From: Cladopsammia gracilis
Lineage: Eukaryota; Cnidaria; Anthozoa; Scleractinia; Dendrophylliidae
DNA length: 64,000 bases
Reading direction: 5' to 3'
NCBI GenBank assembly: GCA_022457155.1
Contig: JAJGOT010000039.1
Span: 2,091,501 to 2,155,500, forward strand
A program made the position numbers and the translations under genes. Below, piece by piece: positions 1-62,444 of this stretch (the first letter of the stretch is position 1; each line of letters begins with the position of its first letter). The notes beneath the pieces were generated by a model that did not search any database, was not told the DNA's origin, and worked only from the letters and a program-made list of their open reading frames with translations.

Positions 1-1
1 T

Positions 2-3000: not shown

Positions 3001-3160
3001 CAGACTGATGGCGGCAGCGTTTTGGCTACTAATAATGATTCTTCACATATTGAACACCACTGCCTGTGTTGCAGTGAATGAAATTGTGCAACTTCTGTTT
3101 GAGTGTAACGGTGACAAACAGGGCAGAAACCATATCCTTCCTTCTAATATAGAAATGTAA
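2..3160 (+). pseudogene. P-element-like transposase with PHD-like finger and SAP-like motif, copy A, frameshifted
   Basis: This is the duplicate of the gene at 25585-29344 and lacks the first ~200 residues because the window starts inside it. A one-base T deletion near 122-125 breaks the frame: reading from position 2 hits a stop near 181. The main frame then runs to 2046. An extra A near 2010 shifts the frame again; without it reading continues to 3160, through the SAP-like motif. The order of motifs is a conserved aspartate in VDA (before the first break), GADGDS, the QPDWRHL block, SDSCEV, and a PHD-like WIGC-x4-C-x4-HEIC block. Copy A keeps an in-frame stretch with an extra Cys pair (CIWCNSREC) that copy B lacks. 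Role as transposase is inferred from the layout. Non-functional as it stands. Confidence 0.75.
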
Positions 3161-3272
3161 AAGAAAGTGCGTTTCATTATTTTACCGTCGTTTTGTTCTC
3201 TGCTACAAAATATATATCACTAAACATTGACATTCAGTTCGATATTTGGACGTTTTTCTATTTATTCCATTC

Positions 3273-3278
3273 AATAAA
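3273..3278 (+). promoter_or_regulatory. Polyadenylation signal AATAAA, transposase copy A
   Basis: AATAAA lies 113 bases after the stop at 3160 and upstream of the repeat-rich transposon end. Copy B has the same signal at 29457-29462. Confidence 0.5.
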
Positions 3279-3320
3279 AGTTGATTATGATTAGTCCTGC
3301 GTGATTTACTTATCAAGACA

Positions 3321-3525
3321 TGGATTCCGAACAAAATCGAATCCGATTGAGTTTGATTGTGTTGATTGTGTTCGATTGGTTCGATTGTGTTCGATTGGTT
3401 CGAAAATCGAACTCACAGCAAAATAGATGTTCGATTTTGTTCGATTACCGAACCCAATCGAACGATTGGTGTTCGATTGGGTTCGATTGATTTTGGTTCG
3501 ATTTTGTTCGATTGGATACGCTGAG
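3321..3525. repeat. Subterminal TTCGATT/AATCGAA repeats, right end of copy A
   Basis: About 200 bases are made almost only of TTCGATT, TTCGGTAATCGAAC-like and related words in both orientations, so the strand can fold on itself. The last bases, read on the minus strand, are CTCAGCGTATCCAATCG, matching the left terminus of copy B. Such clustered subterminal words are typical transposase-binding regions. Confidence 0.8.
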
Positions 3526-4874: not shown

Positions 4875-5658
4875 TTAAACAGTCTTTTCAAGTTTTTCGA
4901 AAAGTCTTTCCATCCTTTCAAGAGTACTCATTGCCCTCTCACACATCCTTGTGTGAGAAGTCAGAGCTTCCTTTTGAAGATCTGAACGGCTAGATTTTGG
5001 TCTTTTGGCCTTCGGAATGGGGTCATCCACTTCTTCGCTTTCGTCTGTTTTCTTTTCTTCCCGAGCTTGGTCACGTCTCTTCTCTGGAACATTGGGTCTT
5101 GCGTATTGCATATCAACGTCCAAGTCCGAGTCTTGAGCGTCGACTAACCCGTCGTCGTCTTCAACGAGTTCCTCATTTTTTTTCTCATTCTTCTTTGCTT
5201 TCGGCCGGGAACTTGGGGCAGTCGGACACTTGATTGAGTTGACATGCTTCTGTACCCTTTTTGCAATTGTACTGATTGTTGACTTCCGGTAGTAACCTTT
5301 AACACTCTCTGGTACTTGTGAACTTGCTAGAATGAGTTTTTGCACCGTTTTTGAAACTGCCTCCCACCCTTTGGTTCCCTCTTTCATCCACCCTTCCTTG
5401 ATAATAGCAGCTTCCAAAGTTCCCGGTGTCTTTTTCACTGCAATTGTTAAATTACAAGAAAAATAAGTAAAGCCTTGAGACACAAGAGCTATACCAACCG
5501 TCAGTTACCAGTTCAACGTTTAAGCATAATGCATAAACATAATGTATTCAGAGAAGAATGGTGTAGTACTCACTTCTTTTCGACTTAGACAGCTGCGATG
5601 AACATGGGTCAGGGTTATTTCCAATATGCTCCGCAAACGGTCTCCAAATATTGGCCAT
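4875..5658 (-). CDS. Harbinger accessory protein (two exons, function unknown)
   Basis: The gene model has exon 1 at 5658-5574 (ATG followed by ANIWRPFAEHIGNN), a GTGAGT donor, and exon 2 at 5437-4875 after a TTGCAG acceptor. The splice keeps frame and gives 215 residues. The N-terminal half is basic with a patch around KEGWMKEGTKGWEAV. The middle is acidic (DDDGLVDAQDSDLDVD) followed by a Lys/Arg-rich stretch that could be a nuclear localisation signal. The C-terminus is a predicted short coiled coil (RAMSTLERMERLFEKLEK). Harbinger elements usually carry a second gene for a Myb/SANT-like DNA-binding protein; the position fits that role, but I do not recognise a clear Myb repeat. Confidence 0.6.
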
Positions 5659-6407: not shown

Positions 6408-7561
6408 ATGGAGAACGTTACATTTCTACAGACATGCTACCTTCTGTGCACCATCATAACAAATTTGCCGGTTCCACTACCCAATGAATCCATAGCCCCT
6501 GAGTACGAGGACGAGTTGCTTGGCCCTAGTCCTTTGCTGCTGCATATTTTTACAGTTTTTAGTTAGTTTACCACCTTTGACAATATTGGGAAATATCAAC
6601 CTTCCACTTCCTCAAGTTCCTGTTTCCAGTTTGTCGAAATTCACATCGCTTCCAAGGAAAAGATGTGTTTACTTTATTTTCTAGACATGAATACATATTT
6701 TGGCTTTTAACTGGAGAAACAACGGAGTCCCTGAACGAATTAGTTGATGATGTGCGCGATGACATTTTAACATTACGAAGGGATGGCGAACAGAGAGCAA
6801 GGGAAGGTAGACCTTACACACTTGACATTGAAAATAGAGTCTTGCTTGTAATCATGTGGTTACGAAAATACTCTAGTATTGATGTGTTAGCTTCCATCTT
6901 TGATGTTAGTATGTCTACGGTGTCTGGAACTATTCATCAAATTATCCCAGTTCTCTGGCATTATTTTAGAAACCAAGTGACTTGGCCAGGTCGCAGAGAA
7001 TGGAGACGTCTTCGAAATACTTGGAGATACTTCCCAAATGCTGTGGGAGCTATCGACGGAACATACACCCCTATCTATAGACCCCTCACCGAAAATCAGC
7101 AGACCTTTTACAGTGGACATCGACATCGACACGTGATGAGTACTCAAATCGTTTGTGACTGCTTAGGTCCTATAAGATACATACAAAGTGGATTCCCAGG
7201 ACATTTAAACGATGCTGGAACCTATCTAAGAATGCAGCCGATTGGCCCTGGATTGATTTTAGACTTTCCACATGATTGTGAGCTACTAGCTGATCAAGGA
7301 TACGCCGGCCGTGCACCTCTACGTACAAGGTGGCGACAGGCACAACTACGACGTATACCGGCTAGATTGCGTCGTGAAGCCAGGAGGCACAATCGATACC
7401 ATAAAAAGTATAGAGTCAAAATTGAACATGTAATTAAACATATAAAAGATTATAAAGCATCCAGCAACATATGGAGACATCCACGCTGGTTCCAACCAGT
7501 GATTTTTGAGTTATGTGCATTCATGGCTGAAAGGCACATACGACTTTTCAAAACTCTTTGA
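6408..7561 (+). CDS. PIF/Harbinger transposase (HARBI1-like, DDE_Tnp_4)
   Basis: The main exon (6685-7561) follows a TTTTCTAG acceptor and encodes about 291 residues. A helical DNA-binding region (STVSGTIHQIIPVLWHYF) is followed by the nuclease core: Asp in AVGAIDGTY, Asp in GFPGHLNDAGTY, Asp in LLADQGYAG and Glu in KIEHVIKHIK, the expected DDE arrangement. It should cut and paste the surrounding element. There is no in-frame Met at the exon start. A possible first exon is 6408-6502 (MENVTFLQTC...) with a weak GTACGA donor that keeps frame, giving about 323 residues, near the usual length. The body shows no internal stop, so the copy may be young. Transposase identity is firm; exon 1 is tentative. 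Confidence 0.85.
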
Positions 7562-9601: not shown

Positions 9602-10498
9602 TAACATTTAATTTTAAAAATTAATTTTAAAAATTAACATGATACAACTGTTGGTTCAAAGATGATCTAAGATGATAAAACAGACGCTTTTTATTAACTG
9701 ACACAGCCGCCTTCATGCCATTATCACGATCTTTCTTACTTAGGAAAAATGAATGGAGGAATATAATTAAAATTTTATAACTTCCACCAAAAAAGGCCCT
9801 TTTTTGGCAAAATGGTGATTAAAAAGAACCTGTATGCTTGGGTGCATATTATTTTTTATATATATCACTGAAATTTTCACAGTTTAGTAATTATAACCCA
9901 CCTTTTTTAATTGTGCAGTTTTATCATTGCTTACTGTATACATTTCCAAAGTGTTGTGCCCCGAGCTGCAAACTGATTATTAGTCGCATCAATTCAATTC
10001 AGCACGAAGTAAACTCCAATTGCGTTTTTTTTTTAATAACCAATTTTTCTGCCTTTCCAACTGGACGATCTTTAATGCTTACAATGTATACAGAGCCTGG
10101 CTTATCATTTTTATAAAAAAAATTTATATCTAACTAACAAAAGATTATTTGTTTGGCTGAGACATCTTCCAGTATACTTATCAAAGACGCGAAATATATA
10201 CGTTTCTATTTTCTGTTCAAGGTACAGCTGTGTTGAGTTCAAACCGAACGAACACTATATTCGATCTACATCTTCCAACGACGAATCAAATCAAACAAAC
10301 AACTGTAATCCTGAGGATAAAGGGTAGGTAGTCCAAGTAACTGAACGAAGTATGAAAGGAACATGTTCTGAACATCTGCAGGATTTTTAAATAATTTGGA
10401 GGGAAAAAAGCAAAGAAGTAAGATTTTGTCAATCTCACTGGGACAAAACCCGCGTTTCCATTATCACTTGCAGAGGAGGTCTTTACAAGTTCTTTACC

Positions 10499-11386
10499 AT
10501 GACACAAGCTGGAGACTTCTATTCAACGTCCGTCGCTAACTGCGTCTTCAACGCTGTCTTGTCTTGCACCGCTATCATGTTGAACATTATAACAATACAC
10601 GCGTTAAGAAAAACCTCGTCGTTGCCAAAAGCTTTAAAAACATTGCTCCTGAGTCTCGCTGTTTCTGATCTTGGTGTTGGTTTATTGGTGCAACCATTGT
10701 ACATTGTGCTTCTTGTCATGGAGATGGAACAAAATACTAACAACAATACTTATAACAGCATATTCATCGCGTATCTCATCCCGGTGGTTTCATTTTCTTC
10801 TGCTTCGTTCCTAGTTATTGTCGCTCTAAGTGTAGATAGATTCTTGGCTATTCATCTTCATCTCAGATACCAGGAACTTGTGACTCACAAGAGAGTTGTC
10901 GCTGTAGTGATCTCAATATGGGTGTTCACTGTATTTCTTTCGCTGATTAACTTGGACTGGAATCCAGAGAAAGTTCGTGTCATTATTTTCACAATTTTTC
11001 AGGTTGTTTGTTATGTAACAACAGGATTGCTTTACTGCAAGATATATGCAGCCGTACGACGCCACACAAATCAAATGCAAGCTTTACAAGTACAACAAGT
11101 AGCACCAAATGGTGACATGGCAAATGCTGCGAGGGTGAGAAAGACTGCATTTGCTACATTCTACTTGTATCTGGTGTTTTTGGCTTGTTATTTGCCAATA
11201 TTTTGTATCAATGTTGCTATTAGAAACTGTGGTCTTAATACCTTACTGAAGCATTTACAGTTTTATGCTTTAACGCTGGTGTTTCTTAATTCAAGTCTCA
11301 ATCCTCTGATTTACTGTTGGAAGATGAGACACACACGCCACGCTGTTATGGACTTAATGAGAAACATCTTTCCTGGTCACCACTGA
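10499..11386 (+). CDS. Class A (rhodopsin-like) GPCR, array copy 1
   Basis: This intronless gene encodes 295 residues with seven hydrophobic segments, at about 11-36, 48-73, 86-118, 132-152, 159-185, 215-241 and 253-276. Class A landmarks are Asn29 in TM1, LAVSD with Asp57 in TM2, Asp113-Arg114-Phe115 (DRF instead of DRY), Trp141 in TM4, CYLP instead of CWxP in TM6, and NPLIY at 268-272. The usual TM3 cysteine is missing and the second extracellular loop is very short, as in melanocortin-type receptors. An NNT glycosylation site lies in extracellular loop 1. The ATG is conserved in every copy. The ligand cannot be told from sequence. It probably signals through a G protein at the plasma membrane. 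Confidence 0.93.
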   Translation: MTQAGDFYSTSVANCVFNAVLSCTAIMLNIITIHALRKTSSLPKALKTLLLSLAVSDLGVGLLVQPLYIVLLVMEMEQNTNNNTYNSIFIAYLIPVVSFSSASFLVIVALSVDRFLAIHLHLRYQELVTHKRVVAVVISIWVFTVFLSLINLDWNPEKVRVIIFTIFQVVCYVTTGLLYCKIYAAVRRHTNQMQALQVQQVAPNGDMANAARVRKTAFATFYLYLVFLACYLPIFCINVAIRNCGLNTLLKHLQFYALTLVFLNSSLNPLIYCWKMRHTRHAVMDLMRNIFPGHH

Positions 11387-18913: not shown

Positions 18914-19231
18914 TATATACGTTTCTATTTTCTGTTTAAGGTACAGCTGTGTTGAGTTCAAACCGCACAAATACTATATTCTACATCTTCCAACGACGAA
19001 TCGAATCAAGCAAACATCTGTAATCCTGAGGGAAAACGGTAGACATCAAATTATTTCACGAGTCCAAGTAACTGAACGAAGTATGAGAGGAACATGTTCT
19101 GAACATCTGCAGGATTTTTAAATAATTTGGAGGGGAAAAAAAGCAAAGAAGTAACATTTTGTCAATCTCACTGGGACAAAACCCGCGTTTCCATTATCAC
19201 TTGCAGAGGAGGTCTTTACAGGTTCTATACC

Positions 19232-20119
19232 ATGACACAAGCTGGAGACTTCTATTCAACGTCCGTCGCTAACTGCGTCTTCAACGCTGTCTTGTCTTGC
19301 ACCGCTATCATGTTGAACATTATAACAATACACGCGCTAAGAAAAACCTCGTCGTTGCCAAAAGCTTTAAAAACATTGCTCCTGAGTCTGGCTGTTTCTG
19401 ATCTTGGTGTTGGTTTGTTGGTGCAACCATTGTACATTGTGCTTCTTGTCATGGAGATGGAACAAAATACTAACAACAATACTTATAACAGCATATTCAT
19501 CGCGTATCTCATTCCGGTGGTTTCATTTTCTTCTGCTTCGTTCCTAGTTGTTGTCGCTCTAACTGTAGATAGATTCTTGGCTATTCATCTTCATCTCAGA
19601 TATCAGGAACTTGTGACTCACAAGCGTGTTGTTGCTGTAGTGATCTCAATATGGGTGTTCACTGTATTTCTTTCGCTGATAAACTTGAACTGGAATCCAG
19701 AGAAAGTTCGTGTCATTATTTTCACAATTTTTCAGGTTGTTTGTTATGTAACAACAGGATTGCTTTACTGCAAGATATATGCAGCCGTACGACGCCATAC
19801 AAATCAAATCCAAGCTTTGCACGTACAACAAGTAGCACCAAATGGTGAAATGGCAAATGCTGCGAGGGTGAGAAAGACTGCAATTGCTACATTCTACTTG
19901 TATTTGGTGTTTTTGGCTTGTTATTTGCCAATATTTTGTATCAATGTTGCTATTAGAAACTGTGGTCTTAATACCTTACTGAAGCATTTACAGTTTTACG
20001 CTTTAACGCTAGTGTTCCTTAATTCAAGTCTCAATCCTCTGATTTACTGTTGGAAGATGAGACACACTCGCCACGCTGTTATGGACATACTGAGAAACAT
20101 CTTTCCTGGTCACCACTGA
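19232..20119 (+). CDS. Class A GPCR, array copy 2
   Basis: Intact 295-residue receptor, almost identical to copy 1. Differences include Val for Ile in TM3 (LVVVALTVDRFLA), Asn for Asp in the second extracellular loop (NLNWNPEK) and His for Gln in the third intracellular loop (LHVQQ). Key features are kept: LAVSD, DRF, CYLP, NPLIY, absent TM3 cysteine. The frame is open upstream to 19127, but the ATG at 19232 is the one shared by all copies and is preferred. It ends GHH like copies 1 and 5. Confidence 0.92.
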   Translation: MTQAGDFYSTSVANCVFNAVLSCTAIMLNIITIHALRKTSSLPKALKTLLLSLAVSDLGVGLLVQPLYIVLLVMEMEQNTNNNTYNSIFIAYLIPVVSFSSASFLVVVALTVDRFLAIHLHLRYQELVTHKRVVAVVISIWVFTVFLSLINLNWNPEKVRVIIFTIFQVVCYVTTGLLYCKIYAAVRRHTNQIQALHVQQVAPNGEMANAARVRKTAIATFYLYLVFLACYLPIFCINVAIRNCGLNTLLKHLQFYALTLVFLNSSLNPLIYCWKMRHTRHAVMDILRNIFPGHH

Positions 20120-21917: not shown

Positions 21918-22380
21918 GCTGTTTGACCAGTCAGTTTATTCAAACGCTGCTGCCCTACACGCTACCCGGCGTAATGGGCATGAGTGAGTGACCTGTCTAC
22001 AGAAAAAGAACAAGAGAAAAAACTTCCCATGAAGTCTAGAATTTCTATGTCTTTCAAACGATCACGATCGATCCATCTTTTAAAGAATTGCACCAAGCCC
22101 TTGGCCAACATATGCAAACTTGCTTGAGACGATAAATCCTACCTAGCTTTTATTTAACCGGGAAAACTAACCTAATTTTCGCGTTATGAACATTTTCATA
22201 TTTTCTCGCGCAATCGTGAATACAGGGGCTAGTTTCTTGAAGAAACGGTGGACTGGTGGTTTTAAGAACTGAGTTGATAAGGAACAATAGTTGACCGCTT
22301 TTAAATGATTAAAAAGGTTACGTTTCGAGTTCTATCATTACGTCTGAGCATTCGGTCACTTTTTTCTTTTTTCTACCCGG

Positions 22381-22603
22381 CGTATCCAATCGATCGTTCG
22401 GTAATCGAACCCAATCGAACACCAATCGTTCGATTGGGTTCGGTAATCGAACGAAATCGAACTCACAATAAAATTTGGTCAATCGAACAAAATTGAACGT
22501 TCGATTACCGAACAGTGAACAATCGAACCCAATCGAACGTTCGATTACCGAACAACCAACCATCGAACTCAATCGAACTCAATCGAACGTTCGATTACCG
22601 AAC
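22381..22603. repeat. Subterminal repeat field, left end of transposon copy B
   Basis: Repeated TTCGGTAATCGAAC, CCAATCGAACG and their inverses fill the region. The right end (29512-29706) carries the same words in inverse order. Confidence 0.9.
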
Positions 22604-22794
22604 TCCTGTCTGTTTATACTGCGGACATATTGTACGGTGCACTGTCCCCCTAATCCTTTTTTTGGCGATTCGCCATACCCCGGGATAGGACGAGTTGTCT
22701 GCACAATAGCCACGTGCACACTAGTCAGCCACGTGGTTGGGTGAAATTTTGCAAAAGGTCGAATCACTGCTAGCTTTGGTGAACCCAAAAAGAA

Positions 22795-23332
22795 ATGTCT
22801 AGAGCGTCAAGAACCCGAAGCGATTTCCAGGAGACCCGGGAGGAGACTGAAAACATTGAAATTACATGTACTGTAAAAGGATATCAAGAATGTCCTTTTA
22901 GCGTTGATGTGGGAGAAGAGTTTCGAATTTTTAAGAAGATCGGTTCCAAAGGAAGAGCGTTTAAAGTGACTAACACTAGAGGCCAGTTAGGACATCTTGA
23001 TCGGGCGATGGTCTCGCCTCTTTGGCTCTTTAAGGACGGAATGAATTGGTGAGTAGTGATCCGATTAAGGGCAAAATAGATCGCGTTCGAACGGTGCAAA
23101 TGCCATGACCCTGAGGCTTGACCTGACTGACGGGCTGATTAATAAACCCTGATATTTTTTTTACAGCACAGTTATTGGAAGGCCCTTCGATGATCCAAAA
23201 GGAAGATGGCGTGTTGGTGGAGGAATTAACGTCCCAGTAAGAGTGGAAACGGAAGGAGCTCGAAACAAGATTATGGAATTAAAGAACGATCTCTTAAAAC
23301 TTGGTATTAGGGCAATAATGCGGGAAAGATAA
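22795..23332 (+). CDS. HIRAN-like small protein of the transposon
   Basis: Two exons: 22795-23048 (GTGAGT donor) and 23167-23332 (TTTTTTTTACAG acceptor), joined in frame to give 139 residues. The C-terminal two thirds resemble a HIRAN domain: a beta-rich start (ITCTVKGYQ), FKVTNTRGQLGHLDRAMVS (compare the G-x-x-VGHL helix start of HIRAN), then CTVIGRPF. HIRAN domains bind DNA 3' ends in repair helicases such as HLTF. Here it stands alone, so a DNA-end role in transposition is only a guess. An AATAAA at 23435-23440 follows. Splice sites look intact, suggesting recent coding function. Confidence 0.6.
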
Positions 23333-23949
23333 ATTTACAAGCTGTCCGGGAATCTAGCGGGCGTTTACCGGATATCAGGATGTGTTTGTTGTGTAAACCT
23401 GCATGTCGCGTGCCTGAATTAAAAAAAAATGACAAATAAAGTGAAAATCGTTTTTAAAAAAGTATGTCACTGGACATTCCTAATACCGATGCACAGCTCA
23501 AAACATACAAAAAAGATACTCGGGAAAGATAAGATCGGTAACCTCAAAGAAAACCCCGGGTGTGAACGACGGAAATGGGACCACCAAGATGACAGCAAAA
23601 TATCTGAAATATATAACAAAAGAAATCTTTATTGGCTCTTTACAATTACAATACTCTAATGAAAACCGTAGCAAAGAGCTAGAAAACAGCCGGGAAAATA
23701 GAACATGGACAAGCATTTTAAACAGTTTTGTCTGACTGGGTGGTATCTTGCTTCCCGGTTTTCTGGTGTCCTGACGACATGGATGAGTATTGCCCCGGCT
23801 GGTAATCGCCAGATTTCGCCCTTCTTCTGTGGTTTTGAAACCACACGTCAACCTGTCAACATTGATGATGCATGAGATAAAGTTACAATTCAATTGGTCA
23901 TATTCCCGCATATTTCCACGTGCGTCTTGGTTATGTCCGACTTTATTAA
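23333..23949. other. Transposon-internal spacer
   Basis: This lies between the HIRAN-like gene and the zinc finger exon. An A-rich tract and AATAAA (23435-23440) are at its start. The rest has ORFs on both strands without recognisable motifs. An upstream exon of the zinc finger gene may hide here. Confidence 0.4.
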
Positions 23950-24266
23950 AAATGAATTTATTCTGGGGATTTTGGTTGCTTATAGGAACCACCACCCTAT
24001 CAATACCAGAGTTAACAAACGGAGCACCAACCTTTCAACAGCTTATAAGTCAGCTTTGCGAGAAAGGGTTCGCAGAAGATATATCGTCCTCTAATGATTT
24101 TGAGACCTCCTTACGATGTGTTAGATGTAATGAAAACTTAACGTTTGGACAGGGGCAGGGGCTTTGGACCTTAAAACGACATTCCAAGAAGGACAGCCAT
24201 AAAATTAAAACTGCCTGGACGATCAATGATCAATACAGAGTTATTTCCCTGAAAAAGTCTGGTTAG
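23950..24266 (+). CDS. BED-like zinc finger fragment of the transposon
   Basis: The supported part is near 24042-24266, after a possible acceptor (CCTTTCAACAG). It encodes a region with CVRC, a Trp, then H-x5-H (LRCVRCNENLTFG, WTLKRHSKKDSH), the spacing of a BED or C2H2-like finger that would bind DNA. The frame is open upstream from an ATG at 23950, but that part looks hydrophobic and random, so the true start or upstream exon is unknown. It ends at TAG and overlaps, on the other strand, the tail of the CUT gene, so the two genes converge. Confidence 0.4.
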
Positions 24267-24289
24267 CATTTTACATTTTCGAAGCCCGG

Positions 24290-24922
24290 GGCTTAATAAT
24301 CTTACCTTGTCTTTTCCAATCTTGATTGACTTGGCCAGCTTATCCAGCGTTTCGCTTTGTGGTTTTCCATTACACTGGAGGAAAATTTCGTCCAGCATTA
24401 CTTGCTGCCACTTTTCAAACTTCGCAGGCTGTTGTTTTGCTGGGGGCTCATTTGTTTCTGTGTTGTTGCCTGGTCCTTAGAAATTGCAGCCGGTCGCTTT
24501 CTCCTCTTTGCACCAACGTCGTCAAGAAATGAGCGTCGAGATGCTTCGTCTTTGAGAAAGTCGCGTATCCTTATCCACGATTCTTTTCCAGCGCCCTTGG
24601 GTAGTGAAGCAGGCGGTCGCTTTAGCATGTTGGTGAATGTTGACTTTGACCGGTTGATATACTTGGCAAAATCTGAGCGAGCTACCCCCTTTCGTTCCAG
24701 CCACTTTGATATTTTATCTGCTATCTCCTTAGGGCCTTCATCCTCCTCTCCCTCATCCGTGTCGTCTTCTTGCGCCACATTCTGGACATTTATCTCGTGT
24801 ATCTCCAGAGCAGAATTTTCCAGCTCCACCACCTCAAACTGAATCGATCCTTGAAGCTCTCTCAAGGCATCTTGGAGCATACCTTTCTGATCATCCTCCA
24901 CTGTTATTTTTAACGTGCTCAT
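24290..24922 (-). CDS. CUT-domain protein with homeodomain-like tail, carried by the transposon
   Basis: From ATG at 24922, 174 residues are open. An acidic stretch (DDTDEGEEDEG) precedes a CUT domain at about 65-140 (EIADKISKWLERKGVARSDF, then FTNMLKRPPAS and WIRIRDFLKDE), with the typical helix spacing. A basic RRKRP follows. After this the frame changes: a second frame (about 24410-24295) reads KFEKWQQVMLDEIF and LDKLAKSIKIGKDK, like helices 1 and 2 of a homeodomain, ending at a GTAAGA donor-like site. The shift may be a mutation or an unseen intron; helix 3 was not found. CUT-homeodomain proteins bind DNA. Start codons of this gene and the transposase face away from each other. Confidence 0.6.
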
Positions 24923-25584
24923 GTTTTCTGCTAATGCAAATGTTAACGCTTTCGCAAGATAGTTCCCGGTTTATAATATTCTGCCGTATTACGATCCGTT
25001 ACTTATTTCCGGTCATTTCCAGGTCTTATATCGAGTTTCTTCAAGTCATCAGACGGAAATCCCCGTGGACATCACACACCGGAAACCACAAAAGTGAATC
25101 AAGAGCCTGTCTGTAGCCCTGGACAGCCCTTTGACACACAATCTATTGCAGATGTTTCAGTTGTGAAGAGTATTTGTCAAATGGATGAAGTTTGTAAGGT
25201 TCGTAAATATTTTAACTTACTATCAATGTGTGCCTTTGGCAAATTTGAAGTAAGCTTAATTAAATTTGGAGAGAGGGACTAAGCTTTTACGTACGGATTT
25301 ACGATAACCCCAGGGATAAGTTATGAAACGAAACAATGAAATGAAAAAAATGAATTGAGGATGATGATGATGATGATGATGATGATCACTGAAACATTCA
25401 AACTTTTTGGTGCGTTTAAGATTTACGTAACAAAGTAACCCCGAAACCCGCAAACTGTTTCAGACTTGTATATCCGTCAATCTTTGATTTCCTTTATCAA
25501 AACAGGGTGTAAAAAGAAAAAAAGATGAAATGGAGGTAGACAAGGGAAAGACACTGGCAACATCTTCTTTCCATTTTTCTTTCC
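24923..25584. promoter_or_regulatory. Divergent intergenic region of the transposon
   Basis: This separates the CUT gene (minus) from the transposase (plus) and should hold both promoters. It includes a short plus-strand ORF (25094-25202, MNQEPVCSPGQPFDTQ...) ending at a GTTCGT donor-like site, and an acceptor-like TATCAAAACAG at 25496-25506, so a 5' exon of the transposase is possible. A (GAT)n tract lies at 25360-25386. Confidence 0.4.
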
Positions 25585-28500
25585 ATGGAGGAGATGTACA
25601 ATCAACAACGTCAAAAAGTGGCCGTTGAGTCGGAAGTTATTGTCAATGCTGCCATTAATGCTGCTGTCTTTACTGAAATGAAAGCAAACGACGAGCGCAA
25701 AAAGTTAGTGGAATTAAGTCGAAGCCTCAAAGATCAATTTCGAAATGAGATTATGCTACCGCAGTCACTTAATATTGATTTAATTAAAAACTTTGTTTTT
25801 GCAAATGAAGAAATGGAGCATCGTTCACACGCTTCAACTAAACTGCTGCAAGAAATGACCTTCCAAATTTGCGAGTACTTTGCTATGAAAGAGGTTTTGC
25901 ACAAGCAAATGAACGAACGTGCAGTTGTCCATCCAACACTGAATAAATTTGCGGAAATGTTATCAAATCCGGAAAAAGACAATAACAACGAGCTTCTTGC
26001 TATCGTTTCTGATCTCATTACAAACAACGGGAAAAGGACTGGAAAGCAATGGTCTGATAGCAGCAAGTCACTTTTTGCGTTTATTTTGGACTATGGTGGA
26101 CCAGCTTTAGTGAGTCGAGTTAGGGAAACTATGGGTGGCCCTTCACTCACAACATTATACAAAACAGTTCGATTGCCTTATACTATTCCGCAAAAACTTG
26201 AGTCGTCGTCGTTCTCGCAAGCACGAGCATTTTTTGACCGTCTTGGTATACAAGGGCCATTCATTCTTGCTGTTGATGCCACACCAGTGATACCGTCTTT
26301 AAAAGTCCGCGGTAACAGAATTTATGGTATTGCTAAAGAAGGGGGTGTTATCGTACGTACAGCAGAAGATATCATTCGAATAGCTGGAGATAGATCATTT
26401 CCAAAAACTAAACTTGTGAATACGCTTGTATTAGCTCCAGTCTACGTATCCGAGCCGTTCTATGTTCTTGCGCTAAGCCCAGTCATGTCAGGTGAGACCT
26501 CAGAAACAGTTGCTAACTGGTATAAGGAAGCGGTTCGAATGGGTTTGGAAAATAACATTCGTATCATTGGTATTGGTGCAGATGGGGACTCAAAATTCAG
26601 GAAGTTCTTTCTGGACAAATACGCCAAAGGCAAACGACGAAAAAATGGATTAACCGTCGATTACGAGGGATTTGACTTCTCCTCCGAAACGAAACAATTC
26701 GGTACACAACTGTCCACCACAGTCATGCAGCCTGACTGGAGGCATTTGATTAAAAAATGGAGGAATCAGCTATTAAACACGAAGAGGCTGCTGCTGATGG
26801 GAAAAAATGTCATCCTTATTGAGTACCTGATGGAAATCTATGAAACACACAAATTAGAGTCGGGATTATGGAAGTCGGACATATTTGTTCGAGACAAACG
26901 AAACGTTGATGCGGCAAAAAGAATTCTGCACCCTACGGTTTGCGAATGTCTAAAGAAATCCAATGATGCATTGACTAAAGGTTTGAGGGTATATCTTTCG
27001 GTAGGTTCTTCTTTGCTTCGCAGCTTTTCAGATACAAACTTATCGCCAAGGGAAAGAGCAAACCTTGCTTGGAAACCTGTGATCTTCCTCAGACTTTGGA
27101 AAACTTGGGTCCTTTACGAAAAGTACAATCTAAACACGCACTTTATATCAGACCAAACGTACACTGATACAATTCTTGCAGGCCATTCCGTAATCTTGAA
27201 TATGCTAATATTTGCAAAGTATTTTCCAGATGTGCCATTTTGCCCCTGGTTTCTGGGTTCGGATTCTTGCGAAGTTTTCTTTTCTTATCTTCGTGGATTT
27301 ACAAAAGGAAAAAATAATTTTAACTTCATGGAAATGTTAGACATAACAGCGCGAACTATCAGACTATTGGAGTTAAAGCACAAGAACAGACGGCAAGAAA
27401 TCCCAAAACAGAAAACTGCTTGGCCCAGCAATTTAGCAAGTGAAGTAATAGAAGGAATGAAGGACGCAGAGAGGGAAATGCTTAAAACCATGGAAGAAAT
27501 GGAAATTATCCCAGGACTGAGGGCGGCTCACGTTGTATACAAAAATCAACGAACTGGTGAACTGACGATTCTCAACTCACCAACGAATGCGTTTGTGTCA
27601 GAGAAATCAGCATTTCCAGACGAGTCATATATCGCACCTTTTGAAGAACTGTTCGATCTGGACAATAATATGTTGCTTAATAGCCTTGCACAAGAAGACC
27701 CAACCACACTAGAATTAGCAGGCCTCATTGCGCAGACTAGCTTAGAAGAAGATCCGGAAAATGTGCTCGACGAAGGTGATCCAGAAAATTGTCAGCTTTT
27801 TAAGCGTGGAATTTGCAAGTTCCAGGAAGAAGGTTTTGTAGAACCAAGAACCGACCATTGGATAGGATGCGAGTTTCTCGATTGTGGGAAATGGTGGCAT
27901 GAGATATGTCTAGGTATTAAATTCAAAACTGACGATGAAAGAAAACATTATTCAGTTGTTTGTCATGACCACGAGTGTGATATAGCCGAGTTATACCCTC
28001 AACGAGAAAAATTAAAAGCGACAAAGGATAACAAATCAATTTTAGAAAACAATGAACTCTCTGTGCAGAATACACAAGAAAACAGCGAAAAAAGACGAAA
28101 ACAACAGAAATATCGAGAGCTCAGACCAGAACAGTACGTTGAATACAATGGCCAAGTGTACCATATAGCAAATTTCCTTTCGCTACAAATCGGAAAAGTT
28201 TATGTACCAACAACTGGGCGCCTTTCAAGATGGCTTTCATTGTCTAGATGTGACTTTTATGACTCGAAAGAAAGTTCCTTAAATACCGACAAAGCCACCC
28301 TTACCCTAGGAAATTTTGCCGCTCTATTTGTTCCAAATGTGGGATTAGTGGTGGGTAAAGTCATCAGAATAGCCAGAACCCTGAAAGCGTCAACTTCTTT
28401 CCCTGTACTTAAATTGGACCAAGAAAGCTCAAAATTACCCGGTGTAACAGAACTTGCTGTGTTAGAATTTGAAGGCGTCGAAAAGGAATCTGAAAATCTA

Positions 28501-29344
28501 CTGCCAAGTTCCTGCACTGAAACCAAAAGTAGCGAGTGTGTTCGCATTTTACAAGGTGAGGCTCATAACAGCAATTTTCAGATGACGGAAGAGGATCAAG
28601 ACTTCATCAATAATAAGCTTCCTGAGCTGGTCGAGGAAGAATCGAAGCGTTCAAAACAGAAAGAAAAAGAAAGACAAGAAAAAAATCAAACAACTGAAAG
28701 CAGGGGATCCGAAGGACATGACAGTTATTTTGCTTCGAGAAGTTTTGTTAGAAATGGGCGTTTCGTTTAAGTCAAGTGATTCAAAACAAAAGCTTATCGA
28801 TAAAGTCACTCACGCAAGATCAAGCTTAAATATGACTCGGCCAGTCGATGGCACGGTAGACAGCGCGAGTAGGCTGATGCATGCGCAGGACAATTCATTA
28901 GAAATTTCTCAAGCACGCGACGTTAATTCTGCGTCGATTGATTTCAAGACCTACGGCTGGGGCAGTCGAACAACTTACTCGTCCGAAACTCAAGTCAATT
29001 TTGCATGCAAGTTTTTTGCTTATTACGATGATTTCGATCTTAAGAAAAAAATTGCTTTACTTGTTCACTTGCTATTTTTGTCATCCATGTTAATAGTAAG
29101 CACTTCCTCCAATGTAATTGTTGTCATGCTGGAAATTGCTCTTCTCCTGTCAACGTCGCTTTTAGCCGCCCTCGAGGACATGGACAGACTGATGGCGGCA
29201 GCGTTTTGGCTACTAATAATGATTCTTCACATATTGAACACCACTGCCTGTGTTGCAGTGAATGAAATTGTGCAACTTCTGTTTGAGTGTAACGGTGACA
29301 AACAGGGCAGAAACCATATCCTTCCTTCTAATATAGAAATGTAA
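25585..29344 (+). pseudogene. P-element-like transposase with PHD-like finger and SAP-like motif, copy B (one frameshift)
   Basis: The first frame runs 25585-28770 (1061 residues). One extra A in a run of seven near 28680 (six in copy A) pushes the remainder, to 29344, into another frame. In order: a helical N-terminus; Asp in AVDATPV (~232); GADGDS (~332); QPDWRHLIKKWRN (~382), like the PHL-K-RN block of P-element/THAP9 transposases; Glu in SDSCEVFFSYLR (~561); a PHD-like region (~737-800) with WIGC-x4-C-x4-HEIC and CHDH; then a Lys/Glu-rich stretch and a SAP-like motif (LLREVLLEMGVSFKSSDSKQ). Proposed role is excision and insertion of the element in the nucleus. Tail beyond the SAP is doubtful, see findings. 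Confidence 0.75.
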
Positions 29345-29456
29345 ACGAAAGTGCGTTTCATTATTTTACCGTCGTTTTGTTCTCTGCTACAAAATATATA
29401 TCACTAAACATTGACATTCAGTTCGATATTTGGACGTTTTTCTATTTATTCCATTC

Positions 29457-29462
29457 AATAAA
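29457..29462 (+). promoter_or_regulatory. Polyadenylation signal, transposase copy B
   Basis: AATAAA at the same distance from the stop as in copy A. Confidence 0.5.
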
Positions 29463-29511
29463 AGTTGATTATAATTAGTCCTGCGTGATTTACTTATCAA
29501 GACATGGATTC

Positions 29512-29706
29512 CGAACTAAATCGAATCCGATTGAGTTTGATTGTGTTGATTGTGTTCGATTGGTTCGATTGTGTTCGATTGGTTCGAAAATCGAACTCAC
29601 ACAATAGATGTTCGATTTTGTTCGATTACCGAACCCAATCGAACGATTGGTGTTCGATTGGGTTCGATTGATTTTGGTTCGATTTTGTTCGATTGGATAC
29701 GCTGAG
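29512..29706. repeat. Subterminal repeat field, right end of transposon copy B
   Basis: Matches the right end of copy A with few changes, and is inverse to the left field at 22381-22603. Confidence 0.88.
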
Positions 29707-30115
29707 TTTCTAATAGCTTTCACACCGCAACTTTCAGTTTAACTCGGTGCCTTTGGCCACAGATATAAACTGTAATCTTTCGTCATTTCCAGGTTTCAAG
29801 CTATTTTTTACTGTTGTATAGATTATTGAGGTTAGTGTTTCATACTTTTGAACAAATGACATACATACAATATTGTAATTAATAGACTATGTGTCTTTCA
29901 GCTAGCAGGATGGATCGTGTTCTATTTTCGGCAAACTTCCCGTGTGATCAATTATTAAAGAGTACCACTGTTGAAATTGAATTCAATTTCCGTTTTAAAA
30001 TTTTTACTTCATCACTGGGAAGTAGCCTTTATTAAGATGATCACAATTTAAATGAATACTACGATATCTTGCACATCTCTCTCTTCCAAAAAGGTTACTT
30101 TTCCTTTGGCCCTTT

Positions 30116-31697: not shown

Positions 31698-33252
31698 CTA
31701 GTCAGATGACACGTCAGTGTTTAAAAACACGGTTGTTTATATATGTTGACTGGGTGCAGCAATTCATCAAAGGTACGAAGAACTCGTTCTTTTGTTATAT
31801 ATCTCTAAACGTTTCACAGTTTAGTAATTCTGACCGCCAATCTTTTTTATTCTATGCCTTTATCATTACTTATTCATTTCCAACGTGTTCTCGGCTGCAA
31901 ACAGCTGCCACTAAGCACAAATTAAATTACTTGCCTCAGGTTCTTCAATAACCAAGAAAAAGTCAACTGAGCAAAAAGTAAACTCTTACTGCGTCAGTGC
32001 GGATTTCAATAATCAATTTTATCTCTTTCTGACTGGAGGCTGACCTATCGTCACGGCTCGACTATATGTCTATCTAATGTGTGTTTGTACATTAAGCGTA
32101 CAAAATTGACATCGTTTAGTAGCTTTATTTAACTATCGACAAGCAGTTTTTGTGCCTCCTTCTTACCGAGAGTGAGTTTATTTTTTTATTTAAGGGTCTA
32201 GATAATAGCAGGTAGGTTATAATTTTCAGAGCAATGACAACAGGTTTGAGTTTTAAAATGCATGTTTCAACAATTCTTTGTCATCTTCAGTTTGAAATTT
32301 TAAGTTACAAAGTTGAATTTATAATAATTAATTGAAAATGCTAATGAGAGAAAACACCTTTAACAAAATAAATGAAAGAATACGTGACAATGCGTGAATA
32401 TCAAGAAAGTTTTACTTTAACATGATACAACTGTTGGTTCAAACAAGGTTGTTTGTGGAAGCATGATCTAAGATGTTGAAACAAACGCTTTTTATTAACT
32501 GACACAACCGCCTTCATGCCATTATCACGATCTTTCTTACTTAGGAAAAATGAATGGAGGAATATAATTAAAATTTTATAACTTCCACCAAATAAAGGCT
32601 CTTTTTTGGCAAAATGGGAGGATTTTTGGTGATTAAAAAGAACCTGTATGTTTGGGTGCATATTATTTTTTATATATATCACTGAAATTTTCACAGTTTA
32701 GTAATTATAACCCACCTTTTTTAATTGTGCAGTTTTATCATTGCTTACTGTATACATTTCCAAAGTGTTGTGCCCCGAGCTGCAAACTGATTATTAGTCG
32801 CATCAATTCACGATTCAGCACGAAGTAAACTCCAATTGCGTTTTTTTTAATAACCAATTTTTCTGCCTTTCTAACTGGACGATCTTTAATGCTTACAATG
32901 TATATAGAGCCTGGCTTATCATTTTTATAAAAAAAATTTATATCTAAATAACAAAAGATTATTTGTTTGGCTGAGACATCTTCCAGTATACTTATCAAAG
33001 ACGCGAAATATATACGTTTCTATTTTCTGTTTAAGGTACAGCTGTGTTGAGTTCAAACCGAACGAACACTATATTCGATCTACATCTTCCAACGACGAAT
33101 CAAATCAAACAAACAACTGTAATCCTGAGGATAAACGGTAGACATCAAATTATTTGACGAGTCCAAGTAACTGAACGAAGTATGAAAGGAACATGTTCTG
33201 AACCCGCGTTTCCATTATCACTTGCAGAGGAGGTCTTTACAAGTTCTATACC

Positions 33253-34143
33253 ATGACACAAGCTGGAGACTTCTATTCAACGTCCGTCGCTAACTGCGTC
33301 TTCAACGCTGTCTTGTCTTGCACCGCTGTCATGTTGAACACTATAACAATACACGCGCTAAGAAAAACCTCGTCGTTGCCAAAGCCTTTAAAAACATTGC
33401 TCCTGAGTCTGGCTGTTTCTGATCTTGGTGTTGGTTTATTGGTGCAACCTTTGTACATTGTGCTTCTTGTCATGGAGATGGAACAAAATACTAACAACAA
33501 TACTTATAACAGTATATTCATCGCGTATCTCATTCCGGTGGTTTCATTTTCTTCTGCTTCGTTCCTAGTTATTGTCGCTCTAAGTGTAGATAGATTCTTG
33601 GCTATTCATCTTCATCTCAGATACCAGGAACTTGTGACTCACAAGAGAGTTGTCGCTGTAGTGATCTCAATATGGGTGTTCACTGTATTTCTTTCGCTGA
33701 TGAACTTGGACTGGAATCCAGAGAAAGTTCGTGTCATTATTTTCACAATTTTTCAGGTTGTTTGTTATGTAACAACAGGATGGCTTTACTGCAAGATATA
33801 TGCAGTCGTACGACGCCACACAAATCAAATGCAAGCTTTACAAGTACAACAAGTAGCACCAAATGGTGACATGGCAAATGCTGCGAGGGTGAGAAAGACT
33901 GCATTTGCTACATTCTACTTGTATCTGGTGTTTTTGGCTTGTTATTTGCCAATATTTTGTATCAATGTTGCTATTAGAAACTGTGGTCTTAATACCTTAC
34001 TGAAGCATTTACAGTTTTATGCTTTAACGCTGGTGTTTCTTAATTCAAGTCTCAATCCTCTGATTTACTGTTGGAAGATGAGACACACACGCCACGCTGT
34101 TATGGACATAATGAGAAACATCTTTCCTGGCAGTCACCACTGA
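33253..34143 (+). CDS. Class A GPCR, array copy 3
   Basis: Intact receptor of 296 residues; it ends GSHH because of a 3-base insertion also present in copies 4 and 6. Changes from copy 1 include Val for Ile in TM1 (CTAVMLNT), Pro for Ala in the first intracellular loop (LPKPLK), Met for Ile in NLDW loop entry (SLMNLDW), and Trp for Leu in TM5 (TGWLYC). All class landmarks are retained: LAVSD, DRF, CYLP, NPLIY. The upstream flank lacks about 70 bases seen in the other units just before the purine-rich leader. Confidence 0.92.
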   Translation: MTQAGDFYSTSVANCVFNAVLSCTAVMLNTITIHALRKTSSLPKPLKTLLLSLAVSDLGVGLLVQPLYIVLLVMEMEQNTNNNTYNSIFIAYLIPVVSFSSASFLVIVALSVDRFLAIHLHLRYQELVTHKRVVAVVISIWVFTVFLSLMNLDWNPEKVRVIIFTIFQVVCYVTTGWLYCKIYAVVRRHTNQMQALQVQQVAPNGDMANAARVRKTAFATFYLYLVFLACYLPIFCINVAIRNCGLNTLLKHLQFYALTLVFLNSSLNPLIYCWKMRHTRHAVMDIMRNIFPGSHH

Positions 34144-35640: not shown

Positions 35641-36282
35641 TTGACCAGTCAGTTTATTCAAACGCTGCTGCCCTACACGCCACCCGGCGTAATGGGCATG
35701 AGTGAGTGACCTCTCGACAGAAAAAGAACAAGAGAAAAACTTCCCCTGAAGTCAAGAATTTCTATGTCTTTCAAACGATCACGATCGATCCATCTTTTAA
35801 AGGAATGCACCAAGCCCTTGGCCAACATATGCAAACTTGCTTGAGACGATAAATCCTACGTAGCTTAACTGGAAAAACTAACTTAATTTTCGCGTTATGA
35901 ACATTTTCATATTTTCTCGCGCAATCATGAATACAGGGGTTAGTTTCTTGAAGAAACGGTGGACTGGTGGTTTTAAGAACTGAGTTGATAAGGAACAATA
36001 GTTGACCGCTTTTAAATGATTAAAAAGGTTACGTTTCGAGTTCTATCATAACTTCTGAGCATTCGGTCACTTTTTTTATCTTTTTTCTAATAGCTTTTCC
36101 ACCGCAACTTTCAGTTTAACTCTGTGCCATTGGCCAGAGATATAAACTGTAATCTTTCGTCATTTCCAGGTTTAAAGCTATTTTTTAGTGTTGTATAGAT
36201 TATTGAGGTTAGTGTTTCATACTTTTGAACAAATGACTACAATGCAATGTTTTGTCGGCTTTAGTTCATACAATATTGTAAT

Positions 36283-41465: not shown

Positions 41466-42587
41466 GTTTATTCAAACGCTGCTGCCCTGCACGCCACCCG
41501 GCGTAATGGGCATGAGTGAGTGACCTGTCTACAGAAAAAGAACAAGAGAAAAAACTTCCCCTGAAAATGGTCTAGAATTCCTATGTCTTTCAAATGATCA
41601 CGATCGATCCATCTTTTAAAGAATTGCACCAAGCCCTTGGCCAACATATGCAAACTTGCTTGAGATAATAAATCCTACGTAGCTTTTATTTAACCGGGAA
41701 AACTAACTTAATTTTCGCGTTATGAACATTGTCATATTTTCTCGCGTAATCATGAATACAGGGGTTAGTTTCTTGAAGAAACGGTGGACTGGTGGTTTTA
41801 AGAACTGAGTTGATAAGAAACTAAATTTGACCGCTATCAAAGGATTAGAAAGGTTACGTTTCGAGTTCTATCATTATGTCTGAGCATTCGGTCACTTTTT
41901 TTTTCTTTTTTCTAAAAGCTTTTACACCTTAACTTTCAGTTTAACTCGGTGACTTTGGCCAGAGATATAAACTGTAATCTTTCGTCATTTCCAGGTTTAA
42001 AGCTATTTTTTGCTGTTGTATAGATTATTGAGGTTAGTGTTTCATACTTTTGAACAAATAACTATAATGCAATATTTTGTCGGCTTTAGTTCATACAATA
42101 TTGCAATTAATAGACTATGTGTCTTTCAGCTAGCAGAATGGATCATGTTCTATTTTCGGCAAACTTCCGGTGTGATCAATTATTAAAGAGTGCCACTGTT
42201 GAAATTTGAATTCAATTTCCGTTTTAAAATTTTTACTTCATCACTGGGAAGTAGCCTTTATTAAGATGATCACAATTTAAATGAATACTACGATATCTTG
42301 CACATCTCTCTCTTCCAAAAAGGTTACTTTTCCTTTGACCCTTTTTATTTATTTTTTTTTTAGTGTGAGCAACACAGGGTTTGAAGTGTCAGTCCTTTCA
42401 TATGTCCCACGTTACCGGTCCCCTTTTAAAATAACAGAAAATAAGCCGAGACGTCCCGAGCGAAAACTGTTACAACTATGCCTCTGACCTTAAATGTATT
42501 AAAAACTCAAAAAATTAAATTCTGATAAAACAATAAGGCTCAAAGATCATATTTGGGCAAGAAACGTTTAAAACCACGTTCCGTACA

Positions 42588-46478: not shown

Positions 46479-47091
46479 TGTTTAATTGTGCAGTTTATCA
46501 TTGCTTACTGTAAGCATTTCCAAAGTGTTGTGCCCCGAGCTGCAAACTGATTATTAGTCGCATAATTCAATTCAGCACGAAGTAAACTCCAATTACGTCC
46601 GGGGTTTTTTAATATCCAATTTTTCTGCCTTTCTAACTGGACGATCTTTAATGCTTGCAATGTATATAGAGCCTGGCTTATCATTTTTATTAAACAAAAT
46701 TTATATATAAATAACAAAAGATTATTTGTTGGGCTGAGACATCTAACAGTATATTTAACAAAGACGCGAAATATATACGTTTCTATTTTCTGTTTAAGGT
46801 ACAGCTGTGTTGAGTTCAAACCGAACGAATACTATATTCGATCTACATCTTCCAACGACGAATCAAGTCAAACAAACAACTGTAATCCTGAGGATAAACG
46901 GTAGACATCAAATTATTTGACGAGACCAAGTAAGTGAACGAAGTATGAAAGGAACATGTTCTGAACATCTGCAGGATTTTTAAATAATTTGGAGGGAAAA
47001 AAGCAAAGAAGTAAGATTTTGTCAATCTCACTGGGACAAAACCCGCGTTTCCATTATCACTTGCAGAGGAGGTCTTTACAAGTTCTTTACC

Positions 47092-47979
47092 ATGACACAA
47101 GCTGGAGACTTCTATTCAACGTCGGTCGCTAACTGCGTCTTCAACGCTGTCTTGTCTTGCACCGCTATCATGTTGAACATTATAACAATACACACGTTAA
47201 GAAAAACCTCGTCGTTGCCAAAACCTTTAAAAACATTGCTCCTGAGTCTGGCTGTTTCTGATCTTGGTGTTGGTTTATTGGTGCAACCATTGTACATTGT
47301 GCTTCTTGTCATGGAGATGGAACAAAATACTAACAACAATACTTATAACAGCATATCCATCGCGTATCTCATCCTGGTGGTTTCATTTTCTTCTGCTTCG
47401 TTCCTAGTTATTGTCGCTCTAAGTGTAGATAGATTCTTGGCTATTCATCTTCATCTCAGATACCAGGAACTTGTGACTCACAAGAGAGTTGTCGCTGTAG
47501 TGATCTCAATATGGGTGTTCACTGTATTTCTTTCGCTGATGAACTTGGACTGGAATCCAGAGAAAGTTCGTGTCATTATTTTCACAATTTTTCAGGTTGT
47601 TTGTTATGTAACAACAGGATTGCTTTACTGCAAGATATATGTAGCCGTACGACGCCACACAAATCAAATTCAAGCTTTACAAGTACAACAAGTAGCACCA
47701 AATGGTGAAATGGCAAATGTTGCGAGGGTGAGAAAGACTGCAATTGCTACATTCTACTTGTATCTGGTGTTTTTGGCTTGTTATTTGCCAATATTTTGTA
47801 TCAATGTTGCTATTAGAAACTGTGGTCGTAATACCTTACTGAAGCATTTACAGTTTTACGCTTTAACGCTGGTGTTCCTTAATTCAAGTCTCAATCCTCT
47901 GATTTACTGTTGGAAGATGAGACACACTCGCCACGCTGTTATGAACATACTGCGAAACATATTTCTTGGTCACCACTAA
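47092..47979 (+). CDS. Class A GPCR, array copy 5
   Basis: Intact 295-residue receptor ending GHH. It is the most changed copy at otherwise fixed places: Thr for Ala (IHTLRK), Ser for Phe and Leu for Pro at the start of TM3 (SISIAYLILVV), Val for Ala before TM6 (MANVARVRK), Arg for Leu in the third extracellular loop (NCGRNTLL), and Asn for Asp plus Leu for Pro in the tail (VMNILRNIFLG). LAVSD, DRF, CYLP and NPLIY are retained. Whether the TM3-entry changes alter ligand binding cannot be judged from sequence. Confidence 0.92.
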   Translation: MTQAGDFYSTSVANCVFNAVLSCTAIMLNIITIHTLRKTSSLPKPLKTLLLSLAVSDLGVGLLVQPLYIVLLVMEMEQNTNNNTYNSISIAYLILVVSFSSASFLVIVALSVDRFLAIHLHLRYQELVTHKRVVAVVISIWVFTVFLSLMNLDWNPEKVRVIIFTIFQVVCYVTTGLLYCKIYVAVRRHTNQIQALQVQQVAPNGEMANVARVRKTAIATFYLYLVFLACYLPIFCINVAIRNCGRNTLLKHLQFYALTLVFLNSSLNPLIYCWKMRHTRHAVMNILRNIFLGHH

Positions 47980-62184: not shown

Positions 62185-62444
62185 CTAAGTGCCCGAACGA
62201 TTTGCCTCTTTGAGTACTTTATTTTTATTTAAAATTACCAGTTCTCTGCCGGTGTGAATTGAATTTTGTCATGGGTCAAATAGAAATTGATGTGATTGGC
62301 TGCTTAAATAAACTGATACGTGATGTTATGAAATCACTTATTCCGAGAACCTTTCTATTCCGAGAATCGACAATACAATAGGTAGTAATAGCGCGTTTGT
62401 ATTCATAAATTCCGCTTCAAGTTCTATCTGCGTTGCACTTAGAG

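Follow-up and report, generated by a model that had tools for sequence, protein, structure and literature searches.

A 64,000-nucleotide stretch of the Cladopsammia gracilis genome (C1003:2091501-2155500, hereafter the window) carries a 7331-bp DNA transposon. This element is probably a decayed copy of a cnidarian cut-and-paste lineage that encodes three proteins, a transposase, a CUT-homeodomain protein and a HIRAN-like protein, with the CUT-homeodomain protein acting at repeat arrays in the two ends. The lineage has young relatives in the same genome, which was searched over 878 Mb in 1469 contigs. Copies found there bear contig- or locus-style labels (C1178, C699, L057, L009 and the like), and P0001 denotes the transposase frame of the window element.

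Ends and empty sites of the window element

The boundaries of the element and its end structures are as follows.

22376-29706, plus strand: whole element, 7331 bp
22370-22375: target site duplication TTTCTA, left copy
29707-29712: target site duplication TTTCTA, right copy
22376-22393, plus strand: left terminal inverted repeat CCCGGCGTATCCAATCGA
29689-29706, minus strand: right terminal inverted repeat
22394-22603: left subterminal array, made of AATCGAAC-type repeats (AATCGA 14 times in the first 250 bp, both strands)
29510-29688: right subterminal array, made of AATCGAAC-type repeats (AATCGA 12 times in the last 250 bp, both strands)
35997-36173, 41827-41998 and 49833-50012: empty sites, found as joined-flank matches

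An earlier reading made from the sequence alone (the sequence-only reading) had proposed exact ends, the TTTCTA duplication and empty sites within the same window, and all three are confirmed, with the inverted repeats lying directly inside the duplication. Further inside the ends, a longer inverted repeat pairs 22403-22462 with 29610-29669 (60 nt, 98% complementary). The flanks, joined with a single TTTCTA, give three uninterrupted matches in the window at 92-94% identity, which are at hand because the window contains tandem related units; the site at 49833-50012 reads TTTGTA instead of TTTCTA. A second copy with the same duplication crosses the left edge of the window (window positions 1-3525; the whole copy, L009, is 7213 bp). 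Since L009 has the same flanks and duplication as the window element, the two represent one insertion that was later duplicated together with its unit.

Three genes recur together in four lineages

Between its ends, the element contains the following genes and domains.

22795-23048, plus strand: HIRAN-like gene, exon 1
23167-23332, plus strand: HIRAN-like gene, exon 2 with stop codon
23720-23848, minus strand: CUT-homeodomain gene, last exon with helix 3 of the homeodomain (VWFQNHRRRAK)
24305-24476, minus strand: CUT-homeodomain gene, initial portion of its homeodomain, in a frame differing from the CUT exon (frame break or unseen short intron)
24398-24922, minus strand: CUT-homeodomain gene, exon with CUT domain (Pfam CUT 7.3e-9)
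23952-24261, plus strand: transposase exon 1, encoding a hydrophobic start and a BED-like zinc finger (CxxC...H..H)
25023-25198, plus strand: transposase exon 2, PCNA-box-like motif LISSFF
25506-29344, plus strand: transposase main exon, two frame breaks (before 25585; between about 28586 and 28770)
26158-27378, plus strand: predicted RNase H/DDE core of P-element type, including an insertion domain (P0001 residues 192-598)
27847-27972, plus strand: PHD-like finger, weak in the window copy (0.09), clearer in relatives
28294-28635, plus strand: possible chromo-barrel/tudor-like domain (weak)
28709-28801, plus strand: HeH/LEM (SAP-like) domain (Pfam HeH 2e-6; 27.8 bits, the cut-off being 28.9)
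29033-29308, plus strand: hydrophobic C-terminal helices, membrane-type

CUT-homeodomain and HIRAN genes accompany the transposase in four diverged lineages of this one genome: the window lineage, C1178, C699 and L057. This bears out the multi-gene transposon lineage suggested by the sequence-only reading and speaks against genes trapped just once. Its opposite-strand CUT/homeodomain-like gene is real, with a homeodomain match of 6.1e-11 in the window once two exons are joined. The CUT domain scores 2e-17 in C1178, where the homeodomain is placed by tblastn, 1.5e-13 in C699 (homeodomain 9.9e-17) and 1.2e-23 in L057 (homeodomain 6e-15). A CUT domain followed by a homeodomain places the protein in the ONECUT/CUX class, and the PDB entries closest to the L057 protein are HNF6 and ONECUT2, both domains being covered.

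The HIRAN gene consists of two plus-strand exons in all four lineages, joined at corresponding points that we set. In the Pfam scan, the window, C1178 and C699 proteins give no match; the joined L057 exons reach 26.1 bits against a cut-off of 24.7 (exon 1 alone, 24.4 bits), and the window protein aligns by profile with its L057 counterpart at E 9.3e-6. The C1178 and C699 proteins are likewise tied to HIRAN by this profile comparison. The HIRAN-like label first given to the window gene therefore stands by way of this counterpart and not from the window protein by itself.

A fourth gene, proposed from the BED-like finger, is absorbed into the transposase, because in L057 finger and core lie in one 1441-codon open reading frame; by eye, the finger also opens two Clytia proteins. 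Four separate genes are thereby ruled out.

C1178, C699 and L057 share the gene order CUT, HIRAN, transposase. The window lineage begins with HIRAN, and its CUT gene, on the opposite strand, is interleaved with the first transposase exon. There (23720-24922), transposase exon 1 (23952-24261) sits in an intron of the CUT gene while the CUT exon sits in a transposase intron; in the sister lineages the same genes stand side by side without nesting.

A protein search with P0001 yields 57 matches, grouped into 35 transposase loci. In a genome-wide search for the CUT family, all 64 candidates were scored and 52 matches kept, 25 of which are located upstream of one of these loci at a distance of up to 9 kb; uniform scatter would place about 0.02 there. 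The CUT match is on the strand opposite to the transposase in every linked case (25/25). Among the other 27, nine score like transposon copies (82.5 bits in four, 63.0 in one and 51.6-51.7 in four), so that more of them probably belong to transposons. By position, 25 of the 52 CUT-domain matches in this genome are thus transposon genes rather than developmental regulators, and counts of cnidarian homeobox genes could be misled by them. The strongest CUT match of the genome, C288:950498-950716 (L061; 111 bits, 320-codon frame), is perhaps the host's own ONECUT-type gene.

Copies, relatives and duplication length

Searched with the element, the genome gives at least 165 DNA matches, a lower bound from scoring 40 of 1111 first-look candidates. 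Many copies among the matches listed are short, retaining bases 1-203 together with about 6690-7327, and most of the ones measured span 859-864 bp. Paired ends are present in 18 of 20 fetched stretches, the exceptions being L010 and L013. Read across copies, the target site duplication is 6 bp in 16 and 7 bp in 7 of 23 independent insertions, which carry differing duplication sequences. The 6-bp and 7-bp cases number 15 and 3 in the window family, 0 and 4 in the C1178/C699 types, and 1 and 0 in L057. In this count the window insertion enters once, C1178, C1112, C699, L059 and L057 are added, and L009 (duplicate of the window insertion), L013 and L010 (no right end in either), C969 and L058 (one end only) are left out.

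The C1178 type is a young group of nine copies with 42% identity to P0001; their frames measure 1188-1280 codons, and one has a stop. The C1178 and C1112 elements are 99.9% identical across 7911 bp. Five copies make up the C699 type, also young (39-40% identity to P0001, two with a stop). The L057 type protein shares 33-36% identity with the C1178 and C699 types and 30% with P0001, and its 7120-bp element has ends CCAGACATAAC and the duplication TTAAGT. Across lineages the ends are of the CCCGG..CCGGG-type or CCAGA..TCTGG.

One further copy, L011 (C1391:255580-256930), measures 1153 bp, has both ends and a duplication of 6 bp, and aligns only with bases 1-960 and 7173-7327 of the window element; the HIRAN gene is accordingly kept, with both exons readable, and the transposase is absent. 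In single-sequence protein searches the same protein family appears in Desmophyllum pertusum, Oculina patagonica and Clytia hemisphaerica, with distant relatives in Mycena fungi. A profile search with A2 scored 7987 candidates and kept none, unlike these single-sequence searches.

Two arrangements are seen around L057-type copies. A 39-bp word in the left flank of L057 (1913-1951) recurs inverted past the right end (L060) at 92%, and in C1029 two copies lie tail to tail (216114, plus; 224864, minus).

Repeat arrays at the ends and the CUT motif

The core motif of CUT-homeodomain proteins is given as ATCGAT in excerpts of PMC4077741; excerpts of PMC10515288 give none. In the outer 250 bp at both ends ATCGAT occurs 19 times in C1178, 22 times in C699 and 15 times in L057, against means of 2.1, 2.8 and 1.2 (maxima 7, 6 and 5) in 300 dinucleotide-keeping shuffles, and against 0.07, 0.19 and 0.08 per 500 bp inside the elements. 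The end repeats thus match the CUT motif in three of the four lineages. The L057 ends also contain 14 ATCAAT, against a mean of 2.75 and a maximum of 8 in shuffles. The array of the window lineage is formed by 26 ATCGAA/AATCGA copies. At one site of the CUT domain, HNF6 and L057 read RSQG, C1178 and C699 read RKQS, and the window reads RSKS. The sole lineage without the glutamine is therefore the one whose arrays differ, a single change that may hint at altered specificity.

Organization of the transposase

The transposase consists of a BED-like finger, a PCNA-box-like motif, a long helical stretch, the RNase H/DDE core, a PHD finger, a HeH/SAP domain and a tail. The structure model predicts a P-type RNase H core with insertion domain. 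The PHD-like finger and SAP-like motif named by the sequence-only reading, the latter a SAP/HeH-like part, find support in relatives; the PHD finger was not found in the L057 transposase.

The tail was compared in ten relatives picked for running on past HeH (P0002, P0005, P0006, P0009, P0010, P0011, P0012, P0022, P0023 and P0024; P0025, P0026 and P0027 are outside the count). Within the last 120 residues, all ten reach a 19-residue hydropathy mean of 2.21-2.84, above the rest of each protein, and the window, C1178 and C699 tails agree with them. A hydrophobic tail is absent in L057 and P0019 and, by eye, in the two Clytia proteins. Between C1178 and C699, the ratio of nonsynonymous to synonymous substitution rates (dN/dS) is 0.558 in the tail and 0.135 in the core, where synonymous sites are near saturation. 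Because hydropathy recurs while dN/dS exceeds that of the core, the tail appears conserved in kind across most anthozoan-type members, under weaker constraint than the core. Inner nuclear membrane proteins with a HeH/LEM domain plus transmembrane helices reside at the nuclear envelope; the tail may likewise span a membrane, possibly this one. Compared with PDB, the tail model has no match that reaches E 0.001; small helical domains top the list (best E 0.73).

An N-terminal signal peptide was considered and dropped: 19-residue Kyte-Doolittle means are 2.05 in C699, 1.67 in L057, 1.21 in the window and 1.10 in C1178, so that only two of four lineages reach 1.6, and the Clytia proteins begin at the finger.

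Relation to known transposon systems

Members of the P superfamily have an N-terminal THAP zinc finger and an 8-bp target site duplication. The likeness to P element and THAP9 pointed out by the sequence-only reading is strong at the level of the predicted fold, the P-type core with its insertion domain; superfamily membership is not established. The present elements have a BED-like finger where P has THAP, together with PHD, HeH, the tail and two partner genes, and their duplications measure 6 bp (16/23 insertions) or 7 bp (7/23) instead of 8. Pfam scans give no THAP match, the N-terminus bearing the CxxC...H..H finger instead. Scans of nine members return no P family up to E 10, with filters that drop weak matches, and the A2 profile against PDB sequences has no P element among the listed matches up to E 10.

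Dada elements, as described in excerpts of PMC3706591, have 6-7 bp duplications, a DxxH motif and large, mostly intron-containing genes, and are distant kin of MuDR, hAT, P and Kolobok. The duplication length, the DxxH motif and the large genes, mostly with introns, are shared with the window lineage. Dada is also characterised by N-terminal CCCC and C-terminal CCHC zinc fingers. It lacks terminal inverted repeats, which the window lineage has, and targets small nuclear RNA (snRNA) and transfer RNA (tRNA) genes (PMC3706591, same excerpts). Such targeting is not seen here, given 23 differing duplications and a window insertion in a receptor-array spacer, the other flanks being without an RNA-gene scan. 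The excerpts mention no CUT or HIRAN gene for Dada. By fold the lineage is nearest to P, yet it is placed in neither P nor Dada, because the duplication length and THAP finger of the one and the missing inverted repeats and targets of the other are not found in it.

Kolobok lineages, of the same C/DxxH group, bring accessory proteins (exonucleases, RecQ helicase, His-Me nuclease and KolX; excerpts of PMC9587614). They are a precedent for accessory proteins in DNA transposons, although none named in these excerpts is a CUT-homeodomain or HIRAN protein. Their duplications are TTAA, or 3-5 bp in KolobokP (PMC9587614, as excerpted), unlike the 6-7 bp here. According to excerpts of PMC12730594, Zisupton of the Kyakuja-Dileera-Zisupton group has 8-bp duplications, and IS3EU has ends TAYGG..CCRTA with 6-bp duplications; the former differs from the window lineage in duplication length and the latter in its ends. 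Among the fungal relatives, the Mycena proteins P0020, P0030 and P0031 match the core by profile over 469 columns (E 1.2e-31) and have an N-terminal Ulp1-like protease by weak to borderline Pfam matches. PCNA-box-like words, SLYSFFGK and SLEGFFGF, were noticed by eye in P0020 and P0030.

In PIF/Harbinger elements, a second, DNA-binding Myb/SANT protein stands beside the transposase. Nuwa also carries a Myb/SANT protein (excerpts of PMC12730594). The arrangement is alike in that the element supplies its own DNA-binding partner; the PIF/Harbinger transposase is unrelated, the partner is Myb/SANT rather than CUT-homeodomain, and duplications are 0-3 bp. By analogy, the present lineage may work as a P-fold cut-and-paste element that brings its own DNA-binding helper. 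A match to a well-described superfamily with the same genes had also been named as a finding that would speak against the lineage; the literature searched, Repbase and Dfam not included, yielded no account of this gene set, and an entry there under a P or unclassified name is possible.

Proposed mechanism and alternatives

In the favoured mechanism, the CUT-homeodomain protein would bind the repeat arrays of both ends (ATCGAT or its diverged form) and gather or mark the two ends. The transposase would cut at the CC...GG termini and then join the element to the target with a 6-7 bp stagger. HIRAN, which elsewhere holds DNA 3' ends, may handle the exposed 3' ends or aid repair of the donor site.

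Several observations weigh against this mechanism or its application to the window copy. The window transposase has two breaks in its reading frame, the CUT and homeodomain parts fall in different frames, and the identity of the HIRAN gene depends on the sister lineage L057. Model confidence (pLDDT, predicted local distance difference test) falls to 47-63 at residues 231-280, just past the first conserved aspartate. At the window-lineage ends ATCGAT is at chance level (1 observed, shuffle mean 1.1); since the array is ATCGAA/AATCGA, CUT binding there requires a changed specificity. Recognition of the ends by the CUT protein, as suggested in the sequence-only reading, thus fits the published motif in three lineages and departs from it in the window lineage. 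Ten of the 35 transposase loci also lack an upstream CUT match. Copies with the transposase only had been named as a finding that would speak against the lineage; the three of the ten that were examined show decay or deletion, with the CUT gene broken or partly deleted in L009 and L010 and lost in the internally deleted copy C393 (L059).

The missing CUT matches would also suit an ordinary element of the P superfamily, or of a related C/DxxH one, with captured neighbouring host exons as passengers, as would the P-like fold and the existence of host genes with CUT, homeobox and HIRAN domains. This is very improbable: the same partner genes occur in four lineages with two gene orders and transposases 30-62% identical, the CUT gene is upstream and opposite in 25/25 linked cases, and the ends fit the CUT motif in three of four lineages. 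A stronger contender, at somewhat under even chances, holds that the CUT-homeodomain protein at the arrays regulates transcription of the element, whether by activating a promoter or by self-repression, and that it does not take part directly in cutting or joining. In favour of this, CUT-homeodomain proteins act as transcription factors, and the left array has HIRAN as its neighbour in the window and, in the sister lineages, the 3' part of the CUT-homeodomain gene. Cux1 reduces reporter activity via ATCGAT (excerpts of PMC4077741). Array density, on the other hand, is about equal at the two ends (11/8 and 13/9 ATCGAT; 14/12 AATCGA), arrays are present beyond the transposase stop, and gene-less short copies retain both, all of which counts, though not decisively, against a purely regulatory role.

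HIRAN and the PCNA-box-like motif could instead couple the element to host replication forks, with jumping during or behind replication, in place of end processing. HIRAN is known from the fork-remodelling protein HLTF, and the motif, which may contact PCNA, is present in 7 of 9 members against 0.15 expected from shuffles of the same stretches, these being hand-picked from members with a readable stretch after the motif was seen. With the strict form absent in L057 and P0028, a fork-coupled element is rather unlikely. A bolder extension of the end-array mechanism would see a new superfamily-level lineage whose own CUT-homeodomain protein reads the ends, whose specificity and repeats change together (ATCGAT to ATCGAA), and whose anthozoan transposase is membrane-bound; in this full form it is doubtful, at about one chance in a handful or slightly better. 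If true, the HeH/LEM-like domain and the two or three membrane-type helices after it would place cutting and joining at the inner nuclear membrane. Conservation of membrane-type tail helices in a DNA transposase would be a surprise and would prompt the question whether the nuclear envelope can confine transposition.

A selfish element that carries both a CUT-homeodomain factor and the binding word of that factor at its ends would be a natural test case of protein-DNA co-evolution, each lineage supplying one factor and its own matching array.

Surroundings of the element in the window

The element sits in a spacer of a tandem receptor gene array, which we take to be rhodopsin-like, with closely alike single-exon frames of 313-338 codons. 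A search of a phage DNA collection gave no lead.

10391-11383, plus strand: receptor array frame
19103-20116, plus strand: receptor array frame
33202-34140, plus strand: receptor array frame
46984-47976, plus strand: receptor array frame
53046-54038, plus strand: receptor array frame

In the spacer next to the duplicated copy, two frames lie on opposite strands (4878-5504, minus; 6581-7558, plus), one of them a 326-codon transposase frame, presumably of PIF/Harbinger type. A frame at 62409-63998 (plus strand), which we assume to be of TRIM/NHL type, runs into the window edge.

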